Of a stretch of 64,000 bases of DNA, positions 12,797-35,422 are shown piece after piece. Location: NCBI RefSeq assembly GCF_006438955.1, contig NZ_RCZK01000010.1, positions 1 to 64,000 of the forward strand. The letters are read 5' to 3'. The notes below the pieces were generated by a model that did no database searches, was not told the DNA's origin, and saw only the letters and a program-made list of their open reading frames with translations. Each line of letters begins with the position of its first letter. The first letter of the stretch is position 1. This DNA is from Sphingomonas oligophenolica (lineage in GTDB: Bacteria > Pseudomonadota > Alphaproteobacteria > Sphingomonadales > Sphingomonadaceae). The translations under genes and the position numbers were made by a program.

Positions 12797-13318
12797 TCAG
12801 CGTACCCGCTTGATGAGAATCGATCTGCCACCGTCGATCATCGCGCGAAAGCCGCCGAGCGGGGCTCGCCGGATCGTGATGTCGGCGCCAGTGCGCGGTT
12901 CGAATGCGACCGGATCGATCGTCTCCCACACCGTGTCGTTCGCAAGCGCGAGGCGATAGCGGCCATAGCCGAACTGGCTGACGCCCGACACCTTGGTGTC
13001 GACCTTGGTGACCGCGATCTCGCGGTCGACCGATCCGCCCCCCAACGGTTTGTCGGTCTGCCCGCCCAGCCCAAACGCACGGCGCTTGTTCTCGACCACC
13101 TTCTGCCGATCGAGCGCCAATAAGTCGCCGGATGCGCGGGCTGCCAGGATGCGCTCGCTCACTCGATCGAAACAGGCAAGCCGCGCGGCGTCTGTGGTGA
13201 TCGCCTTGCAGGTCCCGAGTTCGTCCAACGTCTTCGACCCGAGGCGAACGTTCTGGGCATGCGCTGTTCCAATCGGCAGCACCAGCCCAAGCCCCGCACC
13301 CACTATCCACCAGCGCAT
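12797..13318 (-). CDS. Exported protein of unknown function
   Basis: A 173-residue protein with a signal peptide ending at TAHAQ (about residue 21). I recognise no domain. The mature part has a short cysteine pair (GTCKAIT...RLACFDR) resembling the start of small periplasmic proteins. A C-terminal beta-rich part follows (ITIRRAPLGGFRAMIDGGRSI). An in-frame GTG at 13339 could add 7 residues, but GGGGG lies about 7 nt before the ATG at 13318. It stands alone between the amidohydrolases and a divergent receptor gene. Confidence 0.6.
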   Translation of the reverse strand: MRWWIVGAGLGLVLPIGTAHAQNVRLGSKTLDELGTCKAITTDAARLACFDRVSERILAARASGDLLALDRQKVVENKRRAFGLGGQTDKPLGGGSVDREIAVTKVDTKVSGVSQFGYGRYRLALANDTVWETIDPVAFEPRTGADITIRRAPLGGFRAMIDGGRSILIKRVR

Positions 13319-13543
13319 TATCAAACCCCCGGGAATCACTCGTCCCGATTACCTTAGCGTGATCGTGCGACTGGGGAATGTGGCGTTTTTGTCACGTTGC
13401 CGTAGCAATCAGTGGGCGGAAGGGGCCGATTCGAAGATATCCGTTGCGACCCTTTGGCGCGGTTCGCTACAGCCACGCCAGAACCGGTAATGATCCGGCC
13501 AGGCATGACCCGAACATACGGGTCGGCAATAAAGGGGCTTCAA

Positions 13544-16500
13544 ATGACTTCTCCACGCGCACGTTTGCTGGCTTCGACGCTGATCGCCGGCATGGCGACA
13601 ATCGCTACGCCGGCTCTCGCTCAGACCCAAACGCAGACGACTACCAGCACCCAGAGCACGACTGCGACAGGCGACCAGGTTGGCGTTCAGCCGGTCGAAG
13701 CAGCACCCGCCGCGACTTCGCAGCAGGGCGACATCATCGTGACCGGCACGTTGGTCCGCGACCCCAACCTCGTTTCGAGCGCGCCTGTCGCGACGATCGG
13801 TCAAGGCGAGCTACAGCTGCGCCAGACCAACGTCGCCGAGGAAGTGCTGCGCACGATCCCGGGTATCGTTCCCAGCATCGGCAGCAACGTCAATAATGGC
13901 AACGGCGGTGCGGCGTTCGTCAACCTTCGCGGCCTCGGTTCGAACCGTAACCTTGTCCTGCTCGACGGGGCGCGTATCGCGCCGGCAGGCTTGGGCGGCC
14001 AGGTCGATCTCAACAACATTCCGCTCGCGTTGCTTGAGCGCGTCGATGTTCTGACCGGTGGTGCCAGTTCGACCTATGGTGCGGACGCAGTGTCGGGCGT
14101 GGTCAACTTCATCACCAAGCAGGATTTTGCTGGGATGGAGGCCAACGTCTCCGAGCAGATCACCCAGCGTGGAGACGGCAATCATCTCCGTGCCGACCTG
14201 ACTCTGGGCGCTAATTTCGATGACGGTCGTGGCAACGCGGTACTGAGCCTCGGATATCAGGAGTCGGATCCCGTGTACTTCGGGGGACCGGATCGTCCTG
14301 CGTCGGACGTGACGCTCGAATCTTACGATCGCTTCTACGTGGCTGGTCAGGGTTCATCGACCACGACGCCGGCGGCGCTCGACATTGGCGGCGGTCGCAA
14401 GCGTCAACAGATTTCTGCGGACGGGACAGACATCACGCCATTCTACTCGGCGTTCAACTTCAATCCCTACAACGTGTTTCAGGTGCCCTTCACGCGTTAC
14501 AACATGTATGGCGCGGCGCATTACGATGTTGCCGATCATGTGACCGTCTATGCGCGGGGCTTGTTCTCGGACAATACGGTGAAGACGATCATCGCGCCAT
14601 CGGGGGTGTTTGGTTCGTCGGTCACGGTGCCGGTCAGCAACCCATTCATCTCGCCGGCGCAACGCACCTACCTGTGCGCGAACGCCGACACGAACACCGC
14701 GGTGGCAGGCAATCAGACGTTGACGGCGGCACAATGCTCGGCGGCGGCGTTGGCGACCAGCCCGACCAGTCCCGACTATCGTACCTTCACCTTCGGTTTA
14801 CGTCGTCGTACGACGGAAGTCGGGCCGCGGATCAGCGACTACAACACGCAGATTTTCGATTTCCGCGCTGGCGTCCGTGGCGACATCACGAGCAACATCG
14901 GGTTCGACGTGTCAGGTTCCTACGGTCGTTCCAGGAACACGCAGGCAATTCAGAATTATGTGCTGACATCGCGCGTTCGTCAGGCACTGCTCGCGACCAA
15001 CACGACCACCTGCCTCACCAACTCCAATGGGTGCGTCCCCCTCAACATTTTTGGGGCGAACAACTCGATCACTCCCGCGATGGTCGACTATATCTCGGAT
15101 GACGCCACGACCTTTGTCGAAACGACGCTGGGCCAGGCGCGCGGCGTGATCAATGGCGACCTCGGCTTCGGTTCGCCGTTCGCGTCGCAGAACATCAATT
15201 TTGCGGTTGGTACGGAATATCGCAAATACACCGCGAAGCAGCGGTCGGACGTCTTGGCGAAGACTCCCGGTGAACTGGGCGGCGCAGGAGGCGCAGCGCC
15301 CGACATCACCGGTGGTTTCGATGTCGTCGAAGGGTTTGGCGAGCTGGTTGTCCCACTGATCACCGATCGGCCATTTTTCCAGTCGTTGACGGCGGAAGGC
15401 GGGATTCGCCAGTCGCACTACAAGATCGATACGGCCGGCAATCCGACGTTTAACACCACGACGTGGAAGGCCGGCGGCAGCTGGCAGCCGGTGAACGACA
15501 TCAAGTTCCGCGGCAATTACCAGCGTGCGGTTCGCGCACCTAACGTCGGCGAGCTGTTTTCGCCGGTGTCGACGGGGCTGACCAATTTGGGCACCGATCC
15601 GTGCGCGGGCGCCGCGCCGGTAAGCAACCCCAACCTGCGCGCAGTGTGTATTGCGCAGGGCGCACCGGTGGCGACGATCGGCACCATTCAGAACCCGACC
15701 GCGGGTCAGGCGAATGTAACCGGCGGCGGCAATCCGCTGCTCAAGCCCGAAGTGTCGAATTCATATACCTTCGGCGCGGTGGTGACCCCGTCGTTCTTCC
15801 GTGGGTTCACGGCGACGGTCGATTACTATCATATCAAGGTGAACGGTGCTGTCAGTTCGCCGACGCCTGCCGATCTGATCGCGGCGTGTTTCGGTTCAAG
15901 CCCGACATCGCCGCCGGCTTCGGCTGCGACCAGCAAGGATTGTACCGTCATTCGGCGCAATCCGAACACCGGCGCACTTGATGGCGATCCGGCAACGACC
16001 CAGGGTCTGTTCGGTCCTTCGTCGAACCTCGGCACGATCGAAACCGCGGGTATCGATCTGACCGCGGCATACAAGATGCGTCTGGGATCGCTGTTCGGTG
16101 AAGAGGCTGGCCTCAACCTGTCGTTCACCGGCAACTGGACCGAGAAGTCAAAGTTCCAGGCGACACCGACCTCGATCAACCGTGATTGCGTCGGCTTCTA
16201 CAGCGTCAACTGCGGTTCCATCCAGCCGAAGTTCTCGTTCAATCAGCGCACCACGCTGACGATGGGCAAGGTCGATGTGTCGCTCCTGTGGCGCTACATT
16301 CATCCGGTCGATTTCGAACCGCTGCAGTATGCGGCAGATGTTGCGGCAGCACAGGCATCGCCTGCCAACTGCCCCAATTATCAAACCGACTCTGGCGATC
16401 AGATTTCCAACGGTGGTGGCGGTTGCATCGTCGACAGCCCGTTCCGCCATATCGGTGCGAAGCATTATTTCGATCTGTCGACTCGCTTCGCTGCGACCGA

Positions 16501-16663
16501 GAATTTCGAAATGACGATCACGGTGCAGAACCTGTTCGATCTGCAGCCTCCCACGGTGGGCGGCGATGTGGGTGCGACAACCTATAATGGGGGCAACACC
16601 TATCCCTCGACGTACGATGCGCTGGGTCGTCGCTTTGCGGTTGGAGCGCGCCTGAAGTTCTGA
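13544..16663 (+). CDS. TonB-dependent receptor, first of the AspH cluster
   Basis: This receptor has 1039 residues. A signal peptide ends near TPALAQ, followed by a Gln/Thr-rich linker. The TonB box region is DIIVTGTLVRDPN, the plug contains FVNLRGLGSNRNLVLLDGAR and YGADAVSGVVNFITK, and the barrel ends in FAVGARLKF. Several cysteine-containing loops (YLCANADT, NCPNYQT) suggest disulfide-braced extracellular loops. I chose ATG 13544 because AAAGGGG lies just upstream and the signal peptide follows directly. It opens a cluster containing a sulfotransferase-like gene and two beta-hydroxylase genes. A strong terminator follows. The ligand is unknown. Confidence 0.9.
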   Translation: MTSPRARLLASTLIAGMATIATPALAQTQTQTTTSTQSTTATGDQVGVQPVEAAPAATSQQGDIIVTGTLVRDPNLVSSAPVATIGQGELQLRQTNVAEEVLRTIPGIVPSIGSNVNNGNGGAAFVNLRGLGSNRNLVLLDGARIAPAGLGGQVDLNNIPLALLERVDVLTGGASSTYGADAVSGVVNFITKQDFAGMEANVSEQITQRGDGNHLRADLTLGANFDDGRGNAVLSLGYQESDPVYFGGPDRPASDVTLESYDRFYVAGQGSSTTTPAALDIGGGRKRQQISADGTDITPFYSAFNFNPYNVFQVPFTRYNMYGAAHYDVADHVTVYARGLFSDNTVKTIIAPSGVFGSSVTVPVSNPFISPAQRTYLCANADTNTAVAGNQTLTAAQCSAAALATSPTSPDYRTFTFGLRRRTTEVGPRISDYNTQIFDFRAGVRGDITSNIGFDVSGSYGRSRNTQAIQNYVLTSRVRQALLATNTTTCLTNSNGCVPLNIFGANNSITPAMVDYISDDATTFVETTLGQARGVINGDLGFGSPFASQNINFAVGTEYRKYTAKQRSDVLAKTPGELGGAGGAAPDITGGFDVVEGFGELVVPLITDRPFFQSLTAEGGIRQSHYKIDTAGNPTFNTTTWKAGGSWQPVNDIKFRGNYQRAVRAPNVGELFSPVSTGLTNLGTDPCAGAAPVSNPNLRAVCIAQGAPVATIGTIQNPTAGQANVTGGGNPLLKPEVSNSYTFGAVVTPSFFRGFTATVDYYHIKVNGAVSSPTPADLIAACFGSSPTSPPASAATSKDCTVIRRNPNTGALDGDPATTQGLFGPSSNLGTIETAGIDLTAAYKMRLGSLFGEEAGLNLSFTGNWTEKSKFQATPTSINRDCVGFYSVNCGSIQPKFSFNQRTTLTMGKVDVSLLWRYIHPVDFEPLQYAADVAAAQASPANCPNYQTDSGDQISNGGGGCIVDSPFRHIGAKHYFDLSTRFAATENFEMTITVQNLFDLQPPTVGGDVGATTYNGGNTYPSTYDALGRRFAVGARLKF

Positions 16664-16688
16664 TCGTCTGATCAGCGCACGATCGAAG

Positions 16689-16716
16689 GGGGCGTTCCTG
16701 CGGGAGCGCCCCTTTT
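16689..16716 (+). terminator. Rho-independent terminator after the receptor gene
   Basis: GGGGCG pairs with CGCCCC across a 12-nt loop region that can itself pair in part, followed directly by TTTT. It begins 26 bp after the receptor stop codon. Confidence 0.75.
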
Positions 16717-16765
16717 GCGTTGATCGCGACAACCGACGCCCGGTCGGCCATCGCCAACGAATAGA

Positions 16766-17791
16766 TCAGCCGAGCGCTAGCTCGGCAGGTGGAACGACGG
16801 CGACCCCCGCGGTGTCGGCGACGGCCGTCGCCCACACCAGAACCTTGTCGATTTCGTCGGCATGCAGCGACTCCCCCGCTTCCCGATTGGTCTGTCGCTG
16901 GCCGGGAGGGAAGGCCGTGCCGGTCTTGGCGTCGCGCCCAAAATCCCGCTTCACGCTCGCCTCGATCGTCGCATCATCGAGGATCAAATCGAACAGCCCG
17001 GCAACCGCGCGGAGCGTTGCTGCTGGCGCATTAACGAGCGTCTCGCTGTCGAGCATTCGCGCGCGATCGGGAATCGCCGCGGCAAGTTGGGTGAACAGGG
17101 CCTGTTGCGCCAGCCATCCGACCGCCGCTGCCTGTAGGTCGGTCAGCAGGAAATAATCGCGGCTCTCGAATCCCAGGTGGACAATACCGTCCATCAACTG
17201 CTTCGATAGCAGTTCGCGCACCCAGAGGCGTCCCCACATTCCCTTGCGTGCGATCGACGCTATGAACGACCGCAACGGCGCATATAACAGGATGGCGCGC
17301 GCCGCGGGACGCAGGCCCAACGCGGGCTCGATCAACCCGTTAAAGACGTTGGATGGCTTGACGACAACGGTCTCGTTGCGCTCGAACGGGCGTGCGAGCA
17401 GGTCCAAGGCCGATCCGATCACCGGCGCGATAGCGGCAGGTTTGCCGCCGCGATGTCGCCACCCGACCAGGTCGTTCAACATCTGCGGTTCCCTGAGCGT
17501 GCTCGCCACCCCTGGGATGTCGAGCGCGCGCGCGAGGAGCGTGGAACAGCAATAGGCCGAATGGAAAATAAAATGAATCGGTGCGGCCGGCGCGGCTGCC
17601 ACGATGGCATCGGCGCGGGCGATGATCCGTGGTGCATCAGCGGGCAGTTCGGCATCGATCAGAAAGGTCGCGGCCGCGCGCGCGCGCCGGTCGGCGCGAA
17701 GGAAATGAACCGCGTCATGCTCGGGGTCGTAGCGGTGGGCAAGCCAGGCGGGGTCTCCCAGCGTCCGATCGGCGATGCTGGCATCGGTCAT
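16766..17791 (-). CDS. Sulfotransferase-like P-loop protein
   Basis: A 341-residue cytoplasmic protein. An N-terminal region is followed by HSAYCCSTLLARAL (about 77-90), which has the form of the phosphosulfate-binding loop of sulfotransferases, then TLREPQMLND. A later VVVKPSNVFN fits the 3'-phosphate-binding strand. The family has no assigned substrate. It is read away from the adjacent hydroxylase gene, with about 95 bp for two promoters, and faces the receptor gene. The neighbourhood suggests it modifies or handles the same molecule or protein as the hydroxylases. It could instead be a P-loop kinase-like protein. Confidence 0.6.
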   Translation of the reverse strand: MTDASIADRTLGDPAWLAHRYDPEHDAVHFLRADRRARAAATFLIDAELPADAPRIIARADAIVAAAPAAPIHFIFHSAYCCSTLLARALDIPGVASTLREPQMLNDLVGWRHRGGKPAAIAPVIGSALDLLARPFERNETVVVKPSNVFNGLIEPALGLRPAARAILLYAPLRSFIASIARKGMWGRLWVRELLSKQLMDGIVHLGFESRDYFLLTDLQAAAVGWLAQQALFTQLAAAIPDRARMLDSETLVNAPAATLRAVAGLFDLILDDATIEASVKRDFGRDAKTGTAFPPGQRQTNREAGESLHADEIDKVLVWATAVADTAGVAVVPPAELALG

Positions 17792-17886
17792 TCGGACGCA
17801 TCATGGCACAGCCACGTACGGGATCAAGCGCGCCGCGCCGTCGCAACGCTACTGCGTCGGCCCGCTTCCGTTCGCATAGCAATTTC

Positions 17887-19185
17887 ATGGCGCACCAGCC
17901 GACGATAGACGCGCACATCGCCGCCCTTCTTCAGGAGGCAGGACAAGAGCGGCAGGGCGGCGAGTTGACGCGAGCGCAAACCCTGTACCACAGTATCTTG
18001 GCCATGGATTCGGCGCAGGCCGTGGCGTTGAATGCATTGGGGATGATGGCGCTCGATGCGCAAGATCCGGCGACCGCAGCGGGTTGGTTTACCCGTGCGA
18101 CCGAAGCCGACCCCTCCGCGCCTCCGCTATGGCTCAACCTGGCCACGGCAACCCGGGCGCAACGCGATGAGCGCGGGGAACGCTACGCGCTTGAACAGGC
18201 TCTTGCGATAGATCGGCGGCACGTGATGGCGAATTATCGCATTGCCGAGCTGTTCGAGCGGATTGGTGAAGAGCATCGTGCCTTCGAGCATTGGCAGGGG
18301 CTCGCGACCATGCTGGCAGCGGTGCGGAATGAATCGCCCCAGCTCGCCGACATTCTGGCCCAAGCGCGCGCACGAAGCGCGGCGTATGCCACGATGATGA
18401 CGCGGGAACTCGACGGCGCACTGGCTAGTGGGTGCGCGACGCATTCCGATGTCGATCGCCGCCGGGTCGAGGCGTGTGTCGACGCGATGGTCGGGCGACG
18501 CCGGATTTATGCCAATGAATGTCATGGCGTTCACTTCCCGTTCCTTCCAGCCGATGAATTTTTCGCGCGGGAACATTTTCCCTGGCTCGCCGCGATCGAG
18601 GCCGAGACGGACGCAATTCGAGCTGAATGCCAGGGGCTGCTTGCTTCCCCTGACGAAGGATTCCAACCCTATGTAACGCTTGCTCCCGGTAGCCCCGAGA
18701 ACCTCTGGACCCCCCTCGATGGTTCCACTCAGTGGCGATCGCGACATCTTTGGCGCCACGGAAAGCGTATCGACGACGTGTGCGAGCGATGCCCGCGGAC
18801 CGCGGCGGCGATCGATGCGATCCCGCGCGCGCATCTCGCGGGACGGATGCCGACCGCGTTTTTCTCTATCCTCAGCCCCCGCACTCGCCTGCCGGCTCAT
18901 ACCGGTGTCAGCAACGTGCGCGCGATCGTCCATCTGCCGCTGATCGTGCCGCGGGGCTGTGGTTTTCGAGTCGGCGGCGAAACCCGCGCGTGGCGCGTCG
19001 GGGAAGCGTTCGTGTTCGATGACACTATCGAGCATGAGGCGTGGAACGACAGCGATGCGGTCCGCGCGGTGTTGATCTTCGATGTCTGGAATCCTCATCT
19101 GACCGTGCCCGAACAGACGATGCTGCAAGAGTTGTTCGCGACGATGCGGTCGTTGGGCGTGGGCGCCTCCAATCTCGTCGACTAA
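17887..19185 (+). CDS. TPR / aspartyl-asparaginyl beta-hydroxylase protein (AspH-like), copy 1
   Basis: This protein has 432 residues and two parts. An N-terminal tetratricopeptide region (about 1-160: AQTLYHSILAMDSAQAVALNALGMMAL and following helices) is the likely substrate-binding part. A C-terminal 2-oxoglutarate/Fe(II) dioxygenase follows. The facial triad lacks the acidic ligand, as in animal AspH: His338 (LPAHTG) and His383 (IEHEAWN) bind iron, and Arg393 (AVRAVLIF) binds 2-oxoglutarate. It would hydroxylate Asp or Asn side chains of a protein or peptide. ATG 17887 is the first start that does not overlap the divergent gene. A small TonB-C gene follows. Confidence 0.85.
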   Translation: MAHQPTIDAHIAALLQEAGQERQGGELTRAQTLYHSILAMDSAQAVALNALGMMALDAQDPATAAGWFTRATEADPSAPPLWLNLATATRAQRDERGERYALEQALAIDRRHVMANYRIAELFERIGEEHRAFEHWQGLATMLAAVRNESPQLADILAQARARSAAYATMMTRELDGALASGCATHSDVDRRRVEACVDAMVGRRRIYANECHGVHFPFLPADEFFAREHFPWLAAIEAETDAIRAECQGLLASPDEGFQPYVTLAPGSPENLWTPLDGSTQWRSRHLWRHGKRIDDVCERCPRTAAAIDAIPRAHLAGRMPTAFFSILSPRTRLPAHTGVSNVRAIVHLPLIVPRGCGFRVGGETRAWRVGEAFVFDDTIEHEAWNDSDAVRAVLIFDVWNPHLTVPEQTMLQELFATMRSLGVGASNLVD

Positions 19186-19264
19186 AATGCCCCGTGACGT
19201 TGCTGGATCGTTGTCGACGGCTTAGGTTGACCGGATCGCGGAGTCACTCGGGGAGTCGTAGAAG

Positions 19265-19849
19265 ATGCGTCGTTGGGTCATAGCAATCGAGGCAATCGCA
19301 CTGGCAACAGGGATGGCGACGGCGGCTTCGGCGCAGGGCGAAGACGCAACGGCGGTACGCCGCACATCCGATCAGATCAGGTTCGCGAACTATCCCCCTG
19401 AATCGATGCGGCGCGGCGAGGAGGGCGTGGTCGGCGTCCGCGTCACGACCGATCGCAAGGGTGCGATGACGGACTGCAAGGTAACCAAGACTAGCGGGTA
19501 TATCGGGTTGGACACCGCCAGTTGCGACATGCTGCTGGCCTATGGCCGAACCCAGCCGTTCCTGGGTCCCGATGGCAGGAAAGTGATCCGCGAACAAGAT
19601 GGCCAGGTCTATTGGCAATTGCCGCCCGAAAAGCGGCCTGCGATTCCACCGCCCCAAACTGTTTCGGCATCGTTCCTCGCATCGAACCGGTCGGATTCTG
19701 AGAAGGTAATCTGCCATACCCAGACCCGAACGGGATCGCTGGCGGAACGGCAGAAGATTTGCATGACCGCATCGCAGTGGGAACGTCAGCGGCGAGGTGC
19801 ACAGGACGATTTGACGTCGATGACGCCGAAATATCAATCCGGACAATAG
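19265..19849 (+). CDS. Periplasmic TonB-C-terminal-domain protein
   Basis: This protein has 194 residues. An N-terminal signal peptide (cleavage near AASAQ) is followed by a TonB C-terminal-type domain (about 38-120: YPPESMRRGEEGVVGVRVTTD and CDMLLAYGRTQPF). There is no proline-rich spacer, and the N-terminal segment looks cleavable rather than like a permanent ExbB-binding anchor. It may therefore be a soluble domain acting on receptors or on the hydroxylase substrate, not a normal energy transducer. It follows the first hydroxylase gene by 79 bp and converges with the second. Confidence 0.7.
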   Translation: MRRWVIAIEAIALATGMATAASAQGEDATAVRRTSDQIRFANYPPESMRRGEEGVVGVRVTTDRKGAMTDCKVTKTSGYIGLDTASCDMLLAYGRTQPFLGPDGRKVIREQDGQVYWQLPPEKRPAIPPPQTVSASFLASNRSDSEKVICHTQTRTGSLAERQKICMTASQWERQRRGAQDDLTSMTPKYQSGQ

Positions 19850-19861
19850 CGTCGCGGTTTC

Positions 19862-21040
19862 TCATCCCGCGTCGATCGCGACCCCCTGATAACGGTCGAT
19901 CGCTTCGAACAGGTCGGTGAGCGCGGCGCGTTCGGTGGCAGTCAGTTCGGGACGCCAGATTTCGAACAACAGGACGACGCGGGCCTCGGTGCCGCGATTC
20001 CATGCTTCGTGTTCGAACGAATCGTCGAAGATCAGCGTCTCGCCCGGTCGCCACGTCCGGGTCTCCGCGCCGACCCGCAGCCCGCAGCCAGCGGGCGCGA
20101 TCAGCGGGACATGGCAGATCAGCCGGGTGTTGAGCAGCCCGTGGTGCGGCTGGATATGGGTTCCCGGCGTCAGCAGCGAATAGATCGCCATCGGGGATCG
20201 CCCCGCGATGACCGGGATCGGCGCATGGTCCAGCGCAGCCATCGTCGCGGGGCATCGCGCGGCGTTGTCGGCGACGGGCAGGCCGCCCTGCCACAGATGG
20301 AACGCGCTCCAATTCGGATCGTCGCGGAGCGGGTTGGCGGGGGGCGGGCGATCGGGCGACGAGCGGACATAGGGTTCGAAGCCGGTGTGCGCCGCCATCG
20401 CCGCCGACGCTTCCGCGCGCATCGCGGGGACCGCGGCCTCGATCGACGCGAGCCAGGCGAATTCGTCACGTTCGAAGAACGAGCGCTGCGCCAGGCCGGG
20501 AAAATAGAACATCGAGGGTTGCTGGACGAAGAGGTCGCTGCGCCCGAGCAGCAGGTCGATCGCCTGGCGGATGCGCGCGCCCGCCACCCCGTCGGCCAGT
20601 CCCGTCGCATCGACCGCAGCCTCCAGATGCGCCGAGAAACGTGTGGTCGAGGCGGCCAGAAACGCCTCGCCCGCGCGCAGCATCGGCACGAGCACCGGGG
20701 CGATCGTCGCCCCCGGCTGGGTCGCCGCCCCCAGCGCGGTGCGATAGAAGGTCTGCGCCGCGCGCTCGTCGCCCCCGCGGACCTTGAGCGCCGCCATCAT
20801 CAGCAGCGCGCCAAGGTGGCGCGGCTCGTCCTTCAGATAGTGCGCCAACGCGACCTCGGCCTCTGCGTCGTCGCCCAGCCGCTCGGCGGCTTGCGCGATC
20901 AGCAGCCACGGCGCGGGGATGCCCGGTGCGCCCTCCTTCAGCAGCGACAAGCGGGCAAAAGCGGTGCCAGCGTCCCCCGCGCGCAGCGCCGCCATCCCCT
21001 CGCGCGCCAGCCGTTCGCCCTCGGCGTGAGTCAGCGGCAT
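19862..21040 (-). CDS. TPR / aspartyl-asparaginyl beta-hydroxylase protein (AspH-like), copy 2
   Basis: A 392-residue paralogue of the hydroxylase encoded about 1 kb away on the opposite strand. TPR-like helices (about 1-150) precede the dioxygenase domain. The iron ligands are His299 (QPHHGLLN) and His344 (FEHEAWN), and Arg354 (EARVVLLF) would bind 2-oxoglutarate. The spacing of the three residues (45 and 10) is the same as in copy 1. It lies 37 bp downstream of a TonB-dependent receptor gene in the same direction, so the two form an operon. Each half of the cluster thus has one receptor and one hydroxylase. Confidence 0.85.
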   Translation of the reverse strand: MPLTHAEGERLAREGMAALRAGDAGTAFARLSLLKEGAPGIPAPWLLIAQAAERLGDDAEAEVALAHYLKDEPRHLGALLMMAALKVRGGDERAAQTFYRTALGAATQPGATIAPVLVPMLRAGEAFLAASTTRFSAHLEAAVDATGLADGVAGARIRQAIDLLLGRSDLFVQQPSMFYFPGLAQRSFFERDEFAWLASIEAAVPAMRAEASAAMAAHTGFEPYVRSSPDRPPPANPLRDDPNWSAFHLWQGGLPVADNAARCPATMAALDHAPIPVIAGRSPMAIYSLLTPGTHIQPHHGLLNTRLICHVPLIAPAGCGLRVGAETRTWRPGETLIFDDSFEHEAWNRGTEARVVLLFEIWRPELTATERAALTDLFEAIDRYQGVAIDAG

Positions 21041-21077
21041 GCGCAGGCCATGGTCGGCATTCCCGCGCCCGGCATGG

Positions 21078-24029
21078 CTAGAATTTGAACTCGGTCAGCA
21101 CCGTGAACGATCGCCCGCGCGGATCCGCGACGCGGGGTTCCCACGAACTGCCGCTGCCATTGTTGCTGTCGTACGAGATCGCGAACGGCGGGTCGGTGTC
21201 GAACAGGTTCTTCACGCCGAACGCCAGCTTGAAATTGGGCGCCAACGTATAGCCCGCCGAGACATTGTAGAGGATGTAGTTGGCGACGCGGTCGACATCG
21301 TTGGGCGGGTTGAAGGTGCCTGCGGCGATGCCCGGCAGCACCTGGTTCTTGTACCCGTCGCGGAACACCTGGGTCAGCGCCAGCGTCCAGGGGCCGTTCG
21401 AATAGCCGACATAGGCGTTGTACTTCCACCGCAGGCCCAGGTCGGCGGCGAGCGAATAGACCCCCAGTTCGTCGATCACCGTCGCGGCGGCGTTCACCTG
21501 TTCGTCCTTCTTGGTCAGGTACGTCCCGTCGATCCCCGCCGCGATCTGGCCGCGACCCAGATCGAAATTGACGCGCGCGGTGAAATCGATCCCGCGGGTC
21601 CGCGTCGTGCCCGCGTTCGAATAGCTCTGGTCGACGGTCTGGAGCACGCCGCCGGCGTCACGGATGAAGCGATCGGCGAACAGCGTGTAGTTGGCGAACA
21701 GCGTCTGCAGCGCGAGCACCTGGATCGTGTTCTCGCGGTGGATCGACCAATAGTCGACCGAGGCGCTGAAGTGGCGCGACGGTTCGAACACCCCGCCGAC
21801 GCTGAATTCCTTCGCGGTTTCGGGGCCGAGGTTGGGATTGCCGCCGCTGCGGATATTGATCGCGCGGCTGAGCGAGGGACACCCCGATGCCTCGTTGATC
21901 TTGCCGCCCGGGCAATTCTTGGGATCGGCGAAATCGGCGCCGGTATAGACCGAATCGACCACCGGATTGAAGATCTGGTTGAAGGTCGGCACCCGGAACG
22001 CGGTGTTGTACGACCCGCGGAACATGATCGGTTTGAAGGGGCGGAATTTTACCGACACCTTGGGGTTCGTGGTCGTCCCGAATCCGGTGTAATCGTCGAT
22101 CCGCCCCGCCGCGGAGACCTCGAGCCCCGGCAACACCGGGATCAGGATTTCGGCATAGGCGGCCTTGATGTCGCGATGGATGCCGTCGAGCACATTGCCG
22201 TTGTCGAACGGCGCGGCGATGATGACCCGCTGGGTCGCGCGCTGATCGCCGGTGAAGCTATATTCCTCGCGCCGGAAATCGACCCCCGCCGCGATCTTCA
22301 CTTCGCCCGCGGGCAGCCGGAACAGCGATCCCGCGACCGATCCGTCGACCTGTTTGACCGAATATTTGCCGCCATACAGCCGGACGCCCTGCGCCGATGC
22401 GGCCTGCAGCGCGGCGAGACCCGCTGCACTCTGGGTCTGGCCCGCGAACAGGAACGGGTTGATCGCGCCGCTGTTGAGCGCGGGGATCAGCCCCGGGCTG
22501 CCGTCGAGCGTGCCGTTGTCGTTGGTGCCGCGAAAATAATAGCCGGTGCCGAGCAGCGACGACGACTGGCTCTGTGCATAGGAGACACCGGTGCGGTAAT
22601 CCCAATCGCCGAACAGCGGCCCTTCCGCGTTGAGCGCGCCGCGGAACGTCGTCGTCCGGGTGGTGAGTTCGCGTTCGCCGCATTCGACGCACCGCCACCG
22701 GTACGCAAAGCTCGAATTCTGGTTGAGCAGTCCGGGATAGACCGAATTGACCCGCGCGATCAGGTTATCGAACGCCGCATCGTTGACGCCGACGATCCGC
22801 TTGTAGCGATAATTCTGCGTCGAGGTGTTGGGGGTGATCTGCACCGGGGAAAACCGCTTGGCGGAATCCGCGCGCGACCCGGTCACTTCGAGGACGATGT
22901 CGTGGTGCCCGAACCGCTTCACCGCGCGGCCCAGATACGTCAGCGTCTCGAGCTTTTGCTGGAGGTACACGTTCTTGCCGGTGTCGAAGGTGCAGGCGAG
23001 TCCGTTGCCCGGCGCGGCCCAGACCTGGGTGTCGTAGTCACCCTGGTCGAGGATCGATGCGCACCCCGGTTGTCCGGGCAAGCGCAGGATGTTGAGCCCC
23101 CCGGTCGCGCGCTGCGTCGTGCCCGGGATGAGCGGGAACGATCCACTCGTCGGAAACGAGGTGCCCGCCAGATTGACGATCGTCGCGAACGGCGTGCCGC
23201 GGGTATCGACCCCGAGGCCCCGATCATGCTGGAACGTGTCGACGAAATCGCGGGTCTTGGCCTGCAACGGCGCGATCCAGCTATAGCCGACCGTCCCCAT
23301 GACGTTGAAGCCCTGGTCGTCGAGGTCGCCATAGCCCGCGATCGCCGACAGCCGATAGATCGGCGAATCGCCGCGTTCGGTGATGTCGGTATAGGCCGAC
23401 GCGCCGAACCCCTTGTAATCCTTCTTGGTAATGAAGTTGATCACGCCCGCCAGCGCATCGGTGCCGTAGATCGCCGACGCGCCGTCCTTCAGCACCTCGA
23501 CGCGGTCGATCGCCTGGAACGGGATCTGGTTGACGTCGACCGCGCTGCCCGTGGTGCCCTGCGCCGCGACCCGCCGGCCGTTGAGCAGCACCAGCGTCGC
23601 CGCCGGACCTTGCCCGCGCAGGTTCGCGAACGACGCGCCGTTGTTGCCGCGGCGTTCGGCGGTGACGACATCGGAATTGCTCGCGAGATTATCCGCGCCC
23701 GACCCGTTGCTGGTCAGGAAGGAGATCAGCTGTTCGGGGCTGACGATGCCGTTGCGCTGGAGCTCCTGCGTCGTGATGATCTGGAGCGGCAGCGCGCTGT
23801 CGTTGGGATCCTGCTTGATCCGCGATCCGGTGACCAGGATATCGCGGCCGTTGTCGCTTTCCGCCGCGGTGTCGCCGCTGAGCGAAGCACCGCTCGTAGG
23901 GGTCGCCGCGCCGGTCTGGGTCGCGGCCTCGCGCGTCGTCTGCGCCTGCGCCATCGCGAGATGCGGCATCGCGCACGCCAGCGCGGTTCCGCTCACCAGA
24001 ATCAGCTTCAGCGTCGTCCTACCAGCCAT
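21078..24029 (-). CDS. TonB-dependent receptor, second of the AspH cluster
   Basis: This receptor has 983 residues. A signal peptide ends near LAMAQ. The linker is Thr/Ala-rich and the TonB box region is DILVTGSRIKQDPND. The plug has FANLRGQGPAATLVLLNGRR and YGTDALAGVINFITKKDY, and the barrel ends in RSFTVLTEFKF. I chose ATG 24029 because GGGGGG lies 7 nt upstream, whereas the ATG at 24035 is only 1 nt after it. It belongs to the same broad receptor class as the copy at 13544 but is not a close duplicate. It leads the operon with the second hydroxylase gene. Confidence 0.9.
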   Translation of the reverse strand: MAGRTTLKLILVSGTALACAMPHLAMAQAQTTREAATQTGAATPTSGASLSGDTAAESDNGRDILVTGSRIKQDPNDSALPLQIITTQELQRNGIVSPEQLISFLTSNGSGADNLASNSDVVTAERRGNNGASFANLRGQGPAATLVLLNGRRVAAQGTTGSAVDVNQIPFQAIDRVEVLKDGASAIYGTDALAGVINFITKKDYKGFGASAYTDITERGDSPIYRLSAIAGYGDLDDQGFNVMGTVGYSWIAPLQAKTRDFVDTFQHDRGLGVDTRGTPFATIVNLAGTSFPTSGSFPLIPGTTQRATGGLNILRLPGQPGCASILDQGDYDTQVWAAPGNGLACTFDTGKNVYLQQKLETLTYLGRAVKRFGHHDIVLEVTGSRADSAKRFSPVQITPNTSTQNYRYKRIVGVNDAAFDNLIARVNSVYPGLLNQNSSFAYRWRCVECGERELTTRTTTFRGALNAEGPLFGDWDYRTGVSYAQSQSSSLLGTGYYFRGTNDNGTLDGSPGLIPALNSGAINPFLFAGQTQSAAGLAALQAASAQGVRLYGGKYSVKQVDGSVAGSLFRLPAGEVKIAAGVDFRREEYSFTGDQRATQRVIIAAPFDNGNVLDGIHRDIKAAYAEILIPVLPGLEVSAAGRIDDYTGFGTTTNPKVSVKFRPFKPIMFRGSYNTAFRVPTFNQIFNPVVDSVYTGADFADPKNCPGGKINEASGCPSLSRAINIRSGGNPNLGPETAKEFSVGGVFEPSRHFSASVDYWSIHRENTIQVLALQTLFANYTLFADRFIRDAGGVLQTVDQSYSNAGTTRTRGIDFTARVNFDLGRGQIAAGIDGTYLTKKDEQVNAAATVIDELGVYSLAADLGLRWKYNAYVGYSNGPWTLALTQVFRDGYKNQVLPGIAAGTFNPPNDVDRVANYILYNVSAGYTLAPNFKLAFGVKNLFDTDPPFAISYDSNNGSGSSWEPRVADPRGRSFTVLTEFKF

Positions 24030-24191
24030 GATCATACCCCCCGGCCGCAGGTCCCCCCGGCGGCAACACACGATCAACGTAACCGGAATGTCATGTTGCG
24101 CCAGTGATTTTTTGGATCGCCGAAGCCCCAACGACCAATGCCCCGATCGACTATGTCGACCGGGGCATCGTCGCCGACCGGATCGCGCCGT

Positions 24192-32902: not shown

Positions 32903-35422
32903 CTATCGCTTCGCAGGCGCGGGCGCATCAGCATTTTTCATCGCGCGCGCATCGGCGTTCTTGGTGCGCAGCGTCGCCGACGCCGCGGCGGGATCGTCGG
33001 GCCAGGGATGGCGCGGATAGCGTCCGCGCATGTCCTTGGCGACCGCACGCCAGCTTCCCGCCCAGAACCCGGGCAGATCGCGCGTCGTCTGGATCGGGCG
33101 GCCCGCCGGGCTGGTGAGACTCAATACCAGCGGGGTGCGCGCATCGCCGATCGTCGGATGCTCGGCGAGCCCGAACAGCGCCTGCGGCCGGAGTTCGACC
33201 GTCGGACCAGCCTCCGCCGCATAGTCGATCCGGTGCGTGCTGCCCGCGGGACTGGTGAAGTCGGCGGGCACGAGGCGATCGATCGTGCGGAGCGAATCCC
33301 AACCGAGCAGCGTGCGCAGCGCGTCGTTCAGCGCGGGCGGCGGAATCGCATCGAGCCGACGCTTGCCCGCCGCCAGCGCCGGGAGCCATTCGTCGAGCCG
33401 CGCGACCAGTGTGGCGTCATCGAGCGCGACCCCTGCATAGGCGGCGCGATGGCGCAGAACGGTCGCCGCATCGTTCCACGGCAACAGCGCGACGCCGTGC
33501 GCGCGGACCCCCTCGACCAGCGCCGCCGCGATTGCCGCCGGATCGGCGTGGCTGTCGGGGCCGCTCGACAGGCGGAGCGCACCCAACCGCCGTTCGCGCA
33601 GCGCGACGACCCCGCCGCTCGCCGGGTCGAAATCGGCGGTGCGGCGGGTTTCAATCCGGTCGGCGAAGAGCATTTCGATCGTGGCAAGGCCGATCGCCGC
33701 ACCCGACAGGATCCGCGCGCCCGACGCCGCACCCTGGGTATCCGCCACCGCGAGCCATTCGTGCCGGGTTAGCGACGCGGTCGGATCGAGCCGGAAACCG
33801 CGGCCCCCGACCGACGCCCAGTGCTCGCCCGACGCATCGCGACGCCGCGCGATCCGATCGGGGAAGGCGAGCGCGATGCACGTGGCGATGGCGACCGCAG
33901 GATCATCACCACCCGCTCCGTTCGTTTCGAGCGGGGGTTGGGGCCGAGCCGTCAGCTTCTCCCACCGCGTCGCCAACAAGCGCGCCGCGTCCGCCTTCCG
34001 GCCGCGATCACCGCGCCATCGCCGCCAGCGCGCCTCCAGATCGGGATCGTCGCCGCCCAGCCCGCGCTCGCTGAGCAGCACCGCGACCTCCGCCGCGACG
34101 CGCGCCAGCCCCAGCGGCCCGGCGCAGCGCAGCATGTGTGCGAGCCGCGGTGGCATCGGCATCCCTGCAATCGCCTTTCCATGCGCGGTCGGCCGCCCGT
34201 CGGCATCGAGCGCGCCCAGCGTCGTCAGTCGCGCGCGCGACTCGACCGCCGCGGCTTCGGGCGGGGGATCGAGCCAGCGCAGCGCGCGCGGATCGGCCAC
34301 CCCCCAGAGCGCGGTGGCGAGGACGAGGCTCGACAGGTCGGCCTCGAGGATTTCGGGCGGGTCGAACCGCGGCAGCCCCGCGGTCGCGGCCTCTTCCCAC
34401 AGCCGATAGGCGATCCCCGGCCCGAGCCGCGCGGCGCGGCCCGCGCGCTGGGTGACCGCGGCCTGGCTGGCGCGTTCGGTGACGAGCCGGGTCATCCCCG
34501 CCGCGCGATCGTAGCGCGGGCGCCGCGCCAGCCCCGAATCGACGACGATCGACACCCCCGCCAGCGTCAGGCTGGTTTCGGCGATGCTGGTCGCGAGCAC
34601 CAGCTTCCGCCGCCCGTCCGGCTCGGGCAAAATCGCGGCGCGCTGGTCACGCGGATCGAGGCTGCCGTGCAGCTGGTGGAGCGCGATCGTGTCGGGCAAA
34701 TCGTCGAGCCGTTCGGCAACCCGCTCGATTTCCGCGACGCCGGGCAGGAAGGCCAGAATCCCCCCATCGCCGTCGCGCAGCGCGGTACGGATCGCGCTCG
34801 CCATTGCAACCTCGATCCGCACCTCTGCGCGGCGCCCGAGATAGCGGAGATCGAGCGGATAGCGCCGTCCGTCGCTCTCGATCACCGGTGCCGAACCCAT
34901 GATCCCCGAAAACCGCGCGCCGTCGAGCGTCGCCGACATCGCGACCAGCCGCAGGTCGGGTCGGAACGCCGCCTGCGCATCGAGCGCGAAGGCGAGCCCG
35001 GTATCGCCGTCGAGGCTGCGTTCGTGGACCTCGTCGAACAACACCGCGGAGACGCCCGCGAGTTCGGGGTCGGACTGGATCCGCGCGACGAAGATGCCCT
35101 CGGTCACGACGGTGACGCGCGTCGCCGCCGACCGTTTCGAATCCATCCGCGTCGCATAGCCGAACGTCTTGCCGACCGGTTCGCTCGCCAGCGCGGCCAT
35201 CCGCTCCGCCGCCGCACGCGCCGCCAACCGGCGCGGCGACAGCAGCAGTATCTCGCCGGTGCACCACGGCTCGGCCAGCAACGCGGGCGCGACCGCGGTG
35301 GTCTTGCCCGCCCCCGGCGGCGCGACGAGCACCGCGTTGGCCGCATCGCGCAACGCCGCGACGAGATCGGGCAGCACCGCGTCGATCGGCAGCGTCGTCA
35401 CGGAGTTGTCGGCGGGCGGCAT
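32903..35422 (-). CDS. hrpB: ATP-dependent helicase HrpB
   Basis: An 839-residue DExH-box helicase. Walker A is APPGAGKTT, the DEAH-type box is [10 protein letters not shown], and motif III is MSATLDG. The second RecA domain ends in [12 protein letters not shown] (motif VI). The HrpB-specific C-terminal region follows, with LEWLPAL-like and GWDSLR segments. The role of HrpB is uncertain: an RNA helicase that is dispensable in many bacteria. The start at ATG 35422 gives [20 protein letters not shown], the usual N-terminus. An open extension upstream lies in the infA promoter region. Confidence 0.92.

Follow-up and report, generated by a model that had tools for sequence, protein, structure and literature searches.

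In the PiuA/PiuC pair, a TonB-dependent receptor (TBDR) adjoins an Fe(II)/2-oxoglutarate (2OG) oxygenase of the PKHD type whose substrate is not known, and methanobactin loci hold a sulfotransferase together with a TBDR. The locus addressed here belongs to Sphingomonas oligophenolica (Sphingomonadales; genome G000, 3.09 Mb), and encodes a TBDR next to a protein with a predicted sulfotransferase fold, an AspH-type hydroxylase and a small Cys-hairpin protein. The window, that is, the whole stretch of 64,000 nucleotides analysed, covers positions 1-64,000 of contig NZ_RCZK01000010.1. The six genes of interest, P0001 to P0006, lie at 13,544-24,035 on strands +, -, +, +, - and -, respectively; loci fetched for comparison are labelled with L-numbers. 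The presence of P0002, the sulfotransferase-fold protein, predicts a Thr or Ser at residue 680 of receptor P0001, and this association survives a phylogenetic test.

The locus resembles PiuA/PiuC in setting a TBDR and an Fe(II)/2OG oxygenase side by side; its oxygenase is of another family, and PiuA/PiuC has neither a sulfotransferase nor a hairpin protein. Methanobactin and lasso-peptide loci likewise bring a sulfotransferase together with peptide uptake or biosynthesis genes, whereas no precursor peptide or maturation machinery was seen here. An aspartyl hydroxylase appears in one such list (PMC10040529). In the open-access literature searched, this was the one paper to mention a TonB-dependent receptor, an asparaginyl beta-hydroxylase and a sulfotransferase together; its passages covered here give such genes in a co-occurrence table and do not describe the unit. 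Its table 2 gives sulfotransferases and an aspartyl beta-hydroxylase, with cluster numbers, among lasso-peptide genes of Pontixanthobacter relatives. A word search of the main text of a review on sphingomonad TBDRs finds no mention of a hydroxylase, sulfotransferase or gene cluster (PMC7142613). In the portions of the open-access literature searched, with subscription journals outside the search, we found no description of a unit of this composition, and no report of an enzyme-installed sulfo group on an outer-membrane uptake receptor.

A conserved unit around receptor 1

The left part of the locus forms the conserved unit and consists of receptor P0001 (13544..16663, +), P0002 (16766..17791, -), the TPR-AspH hydroxylase P0003 (17887..19185, +, start codon picked by eye) and a small secreted-looking Cys-hairpin protein, for which P0004 (19265..19849, +) stands in the window. 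The sample comprises 61 searched genomes, with up to 20 kb fetched around matches, plus 80 named loci, which are the best 80 of 586 matches and of which 59 have 8 kb on both flanks. Linkage was counted with hidden Markov model profiles built from our own protein clusters and run on stop-to-stop frames; these frames also served in L049, L050 and L060, where the gene caller found almost no genes. One row of the small-protein profile was the TonB_C region of P0004, and the printed matches of this profile outside the window all show the hairpin.

A receptor lies within 5 kb of the P0003-type hydroxylase in 51 of the 59 named loci, while roughly 8% would be expected by chance for any given gene, based on 17 TBDR genes in the 3.09 Mb genome. 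The P0002 family is found within 3 kb of the hydroxylase in 47 of these loci, and the hairpin protein in 44. A dedicated system around a receptor, as proposed in the original prediction, is therefore supported. The recurrent arrangement is receptor forward, P0002 family reversed, hydroxylase forward and small protein forward, and occurs in Sphingomonas, Sphingobium, Novosphingobium, Sphingopyxis, Croceibacterium, Sandaracinobacter and Sphingorhabdus; Blastomonas and Polymorphobacter carry partial or rearranged forms. Beyond the order, L173 holds a P0002-family gene (135 bits), the hydroxylase, a TPR-sulfotransferase, the receptor and a TPR 2OG oxygenase together, and L172 holds the hydroxylase with a receptor fragment at a contig end. 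The other eight class-level loci (L168-L171, L174-L177) contain no island-type receptor; in L169, L171 and L175 the TBDR matches are weak, at 40-100 bits. The cluster is widespread among bacteria from soil and water, yet apparently undescribed.

Optional members of the unit include the TPR-sulfotransferase (PF13469; within 3 kb of the hydroxylase in 13/59 named loci), a TPR 2OG oxygenase (PF13759) and a TauD protein (PF02668). No more than 8 kb from the hydroxylase, clpB is found in 36/59 loci and an M23 peptidase gene in 27/59. A small secreted-looking protein, the divergent neighbour of receptor 1 (12797..13339, -), belongs to a family that recurs at the same distance in 35/59 loci, possibly through synteny alone. 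In L164 (genome G015), a receptor, a TPR-sulfotransferase and a hairpin protein stand between M23 and clpB, with no P0002-family match and a hydroxylase match of only 30 bits; this composition suggests an exchange of enzyme sets around the receptor.

Receptor residue 680 and the sulfotransferase-fold protein P0002

P0001 is a TBDR by Pfam (PF00593 at 1.3e-26, with PF07715) and carries a TonB box-like segment, DIIVTGTLV, at aa 63-71 (13730-13756, +). Its AlphaFold2 model has a predicted local distance difference test (pLDDT) score of 84 and 22 strands by count. Thr680 (codon 15581..15583, +; alignment column 664) falls in the loop 665-735 between strands 653-664 and 736-747, predicted by strand count to be the extracellular loop L7, and is a candidate O-sulfation site. 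Foldseek places the siderophore and vitamin B12 receptors PfeA and BtuB first, at 10-15% identity among the matches listed, and the ligand of P0001 cannot be named because the solved receptors are too distant.

The covariation emerged from a discovery set of 76 aligned unit receptors, in which every column was scanned against the presence of a P0002-family gene (2858 column-residue tests); L078, L097 and L102, from the same genomes as L034, L053 and L068, were excluded from the alignment. Residue 680 is Thr in 63/63 receptors with the gene in the locus and in 0/13 without it (7 Asp, 2 Val, 1 Ile, 1 Gly, 2 gaps), the sole perfect association among all tests. For a second set, 296 genomes of the order were searched, with P0002 found in 105 (E 1e-20) and P0001 in 79 (E 1e-150); 80 regions were fetched and residue 680 was read in 78 receptors. 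Receptors with the gene at up to 8 kb had 42 Thr, 2 Ser, 1 Asp and 1 Gly (Thr/Ser 44/46), compared to 11 Thr, 2 Ser, 7 Gly, 6 Asp, 5 Ala and 1 Val (Thr/Ser 13/32) without it. After removal of four receptors identical to discovery ones, the counts are 41/43 versus 13/31 (Fisher 3.3e-7). Both sets combined give Thr/Ser in 107/109 receptors with a P0002-family gene nearby versus 13/45 without, and 99/101 versus 13/43 when dereplicated at 97% identity. Ser replaces Thr beside the gene in two receptors (L243, L247), and among distinct receptors lacking the gene, Asp is the most frequent residue other than Thr (13/43).

Shared ancestry was addressed with a FastTree tree built with the column masked, and a custom test of dependent versus independent traits. 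The main test used 145 tips, nine loci with a P0002 homologue elsewhere in the genome being dropped (L121, L194, L195, L203, L207-L211). The likelihood ratio (LR) for residue 680 against P0002 is 42.5, or 39.7 with all 154 tips, and dereplication (to 135 and 144 tips) leaves both values unchanged. Across 179 candidate column-residue tests no other column exceeds 22.5, and simulated independent traits (n=143) reach at most 18.2. Of 233 column tests planned in one run, 204 were completed (139/139 for P0002, 54 for AspH and 9 for the TPR-sulfotransferase). Independent pairs stand at seven for, none against and eight ties. Additionally, receptor copies within one genome differ as predicted in three of five cases: Thr beside the gene and Asp further off in L183, Thr/Ala in L239/L203 and Thr/Gly in L080/L121. 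As a separate observation, receptor column 625 (P0001 W641) is Tyr in 27/38 receptors with a TPR-sulfotransferase nearby versus 19/116 without; as a partner site of that enzyme it was rejected, its LR of 20.5 being inside the background range.

P0002 has no match in Pfam, NCBIfam or the PDB sequences. Its structure model, built from a 45-member alignment, has a pLDDT of 95 and a sulfotransferase fold. Foldseek ranks the tyrosylprotein sulfotransferases TPST1/2 first (best E 8.4e-6), as does VIA-align (Z 15.4, 231 residues, 3.6 A), which bears out the earlier proposal that this P-loop protein is sulfotransferase-like. Invariant residues in the 45 members include H77, C81, S83, T84, E101, K145, R192, D218, K289, R299 and E313, and Ser179 is kept in at least 90%. 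The putative 5'-phosphosulfate-binding (5'-PSB) loop reads HSA[FY]CxST (aa 77-84), with His77 at its start, Ala in 74 of 77 aligned members and the following residue F or Y in the 20 printed. The sections of PMC6637879 covered here describe a Glu between the two motifs for 3'-phosphoadenosine 5'-phosphosulfate (PAPS) and a Ser in the second as features of sulfotransferases. Glu101 and Ser179 fit a Glu/His base between the motifs and the Ser in the second, as judged by strand order rather than superposition. The P-loop helix is succeeded by a strand with Glu101 after it, and the next strand closes with Lys145. These two residues we take to be the counterparts of TPST2 Glu99 (the base) and Lys158.

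P0002 is therefore like TPST1/2 and the bacterial enzyme RaxST in fold, in the placement of Glu and Lys, and in the Glu and Ser of the PAPS motifs, and unlike them in showing no sequence match, in pointing to Thr/Ser rather than Tyr as substrate and in having a receptor as neighbour rather than a 60-residue peptide. It is a protein of predicted sulfotransferase fold, with putative PAPS binding and sulfo transfer. No leader is seen by eye on P0002, P0003 or P0005; given this and their cosubstrates PAPS and 2OG, the enzymes are placed in the cytosol, so that protein substrates would be met before export.

Hydroxylases, hairpin proteins and the second receptor

The hydroxylases P0003 and P0005 (19862..21040, -) both match PF05118 (4.5e-41 and 4.7e-41), with weak TPR matches, and represent two of the three PF05118 genes in the genome. 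They are 39% identical, and the identical His-His spacing noticed earlier is indeed 45 residues in each (H338-H383 and H299-H344). In human AspH, which shares TPR and PF05118 with P0003, the metal and 2OG residues given in the part of PMC13168262 covered here are H679, H725, S668, H690 and R736. By alignment and spacing these correspond to P0003 H338, H383, S327, H349 and R393, the last within one position, and all five are invariant in 24 aligned members. P0003 thus has the domain, the two metal His and the 2OG residues of an AspH-type enzyme. Unlike human AspH, it is bacterial, shows no leader and has no EGF-like domain in its neighbourhood.

The linkage of hydroxylase to receptor in other genomes, on which the original prediction had staked itself, holds for the P0003 type and fails within the genus for the P0005 type, which there has a receptor in 0/10 loci (L036-L044, L046; about 10 kb on each side, with one 31-bit fragment in L039). 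In other families of the order, hydroxylases best matching P0005 do have a receptor (L045, L047, L048), as do L049, L050, L051 and L060, whose hydroxylase is assigned to neither type. Within the genus the P0005 type is mostly away from the unit and adjoins P0003 in L034, L035 and L075-L079; here and in some related genomes, hydroxylase 2 has become part of the unit.

Hydroxylation of the receptor, also suggested before, is not supported. P0001 D439 (column 423) is the best raw Asp/Asn column against the hydroxylase (107/111 versus 12/43), and it was rejected as a site, with independent pairs at 1:1 and a position in a barrel strand. No receptor column stands out against AspH presence in 54 phylogenetic tests (best LR 16.5), and no Asp or Asn of the hairpin protein varies convincingly with the hydroxylase (best 72/128 versus 1/18).

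P0004 has an N-terminal hydrophobic leader, a TonB_C domain at aa 42-108 (PF03544, 5.8e-11) and a C-terminal Cys-hairpin at aa 150-172 (19712..19780, +), C-x5-TGSL-x6-C-x5-W. The free TonB-C protein described at the outset is real as far as the domain goes; the part that recurs in small proteins of other loci is the hairpin, which in the window is a C-terminal tail fused to TonB_C. P0004 (194 aa) is not built as a TonB energy transducer, with TonB_C about 20 residues after the leader and no Pro-rich linker between them; whether the leader is an anchor or cleaved was judged by eye. In most loci a small protein gene adjoins the hydroxylase or receptor, about 75-160 residues as an open frame, with a hydrophobic leader and the core C-x6-7-G[ST]-x6-8-C-x4-5-W (row L067, which was out of frame, was left out of the final profile, A4). 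Eight examples searched against Pfam gave no family above its cut-off. Of 26 genomes searched, 15 carry between one and seven members of the family; none turned up in the ten genomes belonging to other families of the order. A second member in this genome (G000:C12:228895-229032) lies about 3.4 kb from another TBDR gene.

The hairpin core VTGS[L/R][VI] is similar to the TonB box in the receptor next to it (for example DTIVVTGS[L/R]I). The hairpin has R in 10/12 loci whose receptor has R, versus 0/92 whose receptor has L; on the tree this agreement involves only 3 to 5 changes (LR 16.5, p 0.002) and is suggestive of TonB-box mimicry. The fusion in P0004 fits such a mimic, because TonB_C binds TonB boxes. 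Tuckman and Osburne (cited in PMC7142613) reportedly found in 1992 that a TonB-box consensus pentapeptide inhibits TonB-dependent processes.

Receptor 2 (P0006, 21078..24035, -; PF00593 at 7.6e-37, with PF07715) was rejected as part of the unit. All five homologues examined lack the hydroxylase, P0002 and hairpin families within 1.5 kb flanks, and it is joined to the unit only here, as far as seen. The initial inventory (TBDRs and TPR-AspH hydroxylases, two of each, with one P-loop and one TonB_C protein) is upheld by Pfam and predicted structure. No ordinary metabolic gene is interspersed among the six, as stated at the outset; the symmetry read into them was seen in this genome only. A plasmid origin of the stretch was rejected, as a PLSDB megablast gave no match. 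Elsewhere in the window, an ARAGORN tRNA call at 33439-33527 (-), with the odd anticodon cggc, lies within a predicted coding region (32903-35422) and is probably spurious.

Proposed mechanism and its rivals

We propose that the locus encodes an uptake receptor together with its own dedicated modifying enzymes, and that P0002 sulfates the nascent receptor at Thr680, a reading to which we give a probability of roughly 0.45. Modification of Thr680 by P0002 is the simplest reading of the covariation, which lends indirect support to the earlier idea that receptor loops are sulfated. The divergent TPST-fold P0002 would meet the nascent receptor in the cytosol, before export, and sulfate the hydroxyl of Thr680, a position that is Thr, or in rare cases Ser, in other species. 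After assembly, the sulfated residue would sit in the predicted loop L7, where its charge may tune ligand binding or shield the receptor. In the absence of the enzyme, the site would be free to change, often to Asp, which would retain a charge. P0003 would hydroxylate an Asp or Asn of a protein partner, and the hairpin protein may act on the periplasmic side, where it would probably offer TonB a TonB box-like strand. The fuller combination, in which Thr/Ser sulfation in L7 and an AspH-type hydroxylase in the same unit are joined by a secreted hairpin that mimics the TonB box and competes for or recruits TonB, we consider unlikely as a whole.

Several observations weigh against sulfation of the receptor by P0002. 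Eleven receptors without a nearby gene retain Thr, seven of them in genomes with a good P0002 homologue elsewhere and four (L179, L190, L192, L193) in genomes where no homologue was found. The remaining two of the five paralogue cases (L208, L209) also retain it, as do six of the eight tied pairs without a local gene (five of the six in genomes with the gene elsewhere) and seven of the nine dropped loci, with L121 and L203 as the two that do not. Conversely, Asp in L183 and Gly in L197 occur with the gene, the P0002 homologue of L197 being weak (126 bits). Column 572 also scores 7:0 by independent pairs. P0002, unlike TPST and RaxST, has no basic residue at the usual position of the 5'-PSB loop, and a basic residue in the first PAPS motif is listed as essential for sulfotransferases in the covered part of PMC6637879. 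In other genera, P0002 homologues that score about 300 bits have no island-type receptor in the fetched flanks in 3/3 loci (L255-L257), where four of ten neighbours scanned have Pfam matches (UvrA, DHDPS, DUF2062, metallo-beta-lactamase fold) and give no functional clue. Finally, no hydroxylation site was found in the receptor or the hairpin protein.

The main rival holds that the enzymes build or tailor a secreted ligand, peptide or metallophore-like and with its genes elsewhere, which receptor 1 re-imports, residue 680 contacting the sulfated group. The covariation is predicted by such a contact as well as by receptor sulfation, L7 is plausible as a ligand loop, and methanobactin loci combine a sulfotransferase with a TBDR. 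In the part of PMC10040529 covered, the Pontixanthobacter/Allopontixanthobacter table has entries for 'Sulfotransferase' and 'Aspartyl beta-hydroxylase' amid lasso-peptide genes, with neighbouring cluster numbers. We nevertheless hold this unlikely, as a mere contact residue need not be confined to Thr/Ser (107/109), and as no precursor peptide, nonribosomal peptide synthetase, protease or exporter family is found among the recurrent neighbours, frames under 60 residues being covered in the window only. The precursor and maturation enzymes of a locus for ribosomally synthesized and post-translationally modified peptides are likewise missing from the window interval and the neighbour families. 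For a peptide substrate, another early suggestion, the gaps of 12-102 bp between the window genes leave no room for a precursor gene.

Less probable still is that the covariation is a side effect, a receptor subfamily with Thr680 travelling with P0002 and no contact between enzyme and residue. Both traits do partly follow the receptor tree, most gene-less receptors get lower scores from a profile in which receptors with the gene predominate, and columns 423 and 707 are also strong in raw association, besides the tie of column 572 in the pairs test. Against it stand the LR of 42.5, where other columns reach at most 22.5 and simulated traits at most 18.2, the replication on mostly new genomes and the replacement of Thr by Ser beside the gene in L243 and L247. 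The slimmest chance goes to the hairpin protein as the real product and substrate of the enzymes, with the receptor as its partner. Its closeness to the hydroxylase in 44/59 named loci speaks for this, and it shares its small size and secreted-looking character with RaxX, on which RaxST acts (described in the covered part of PMC6637879). The protein is, however, also beside receptors in loci with neither enzyme (10/30), none of its Asp or Asn is conserved with the hydroxylase, and the conserved hairpin columns include no Tyr.

The gene families of the unit are of known kinds, and its novelty lies in the mechanism that we infer. If sulfation of the receptor by P0002 is true, outer-membrane uptake receptors bear enzyme-installed sulfo groups; both the enzyme and the residue could be named, and species that have Asp or Ala at 680 would offer a natural test. 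This would bear on uptake by sphingomonads, and on phages or bacteriocins that use receptor loops.

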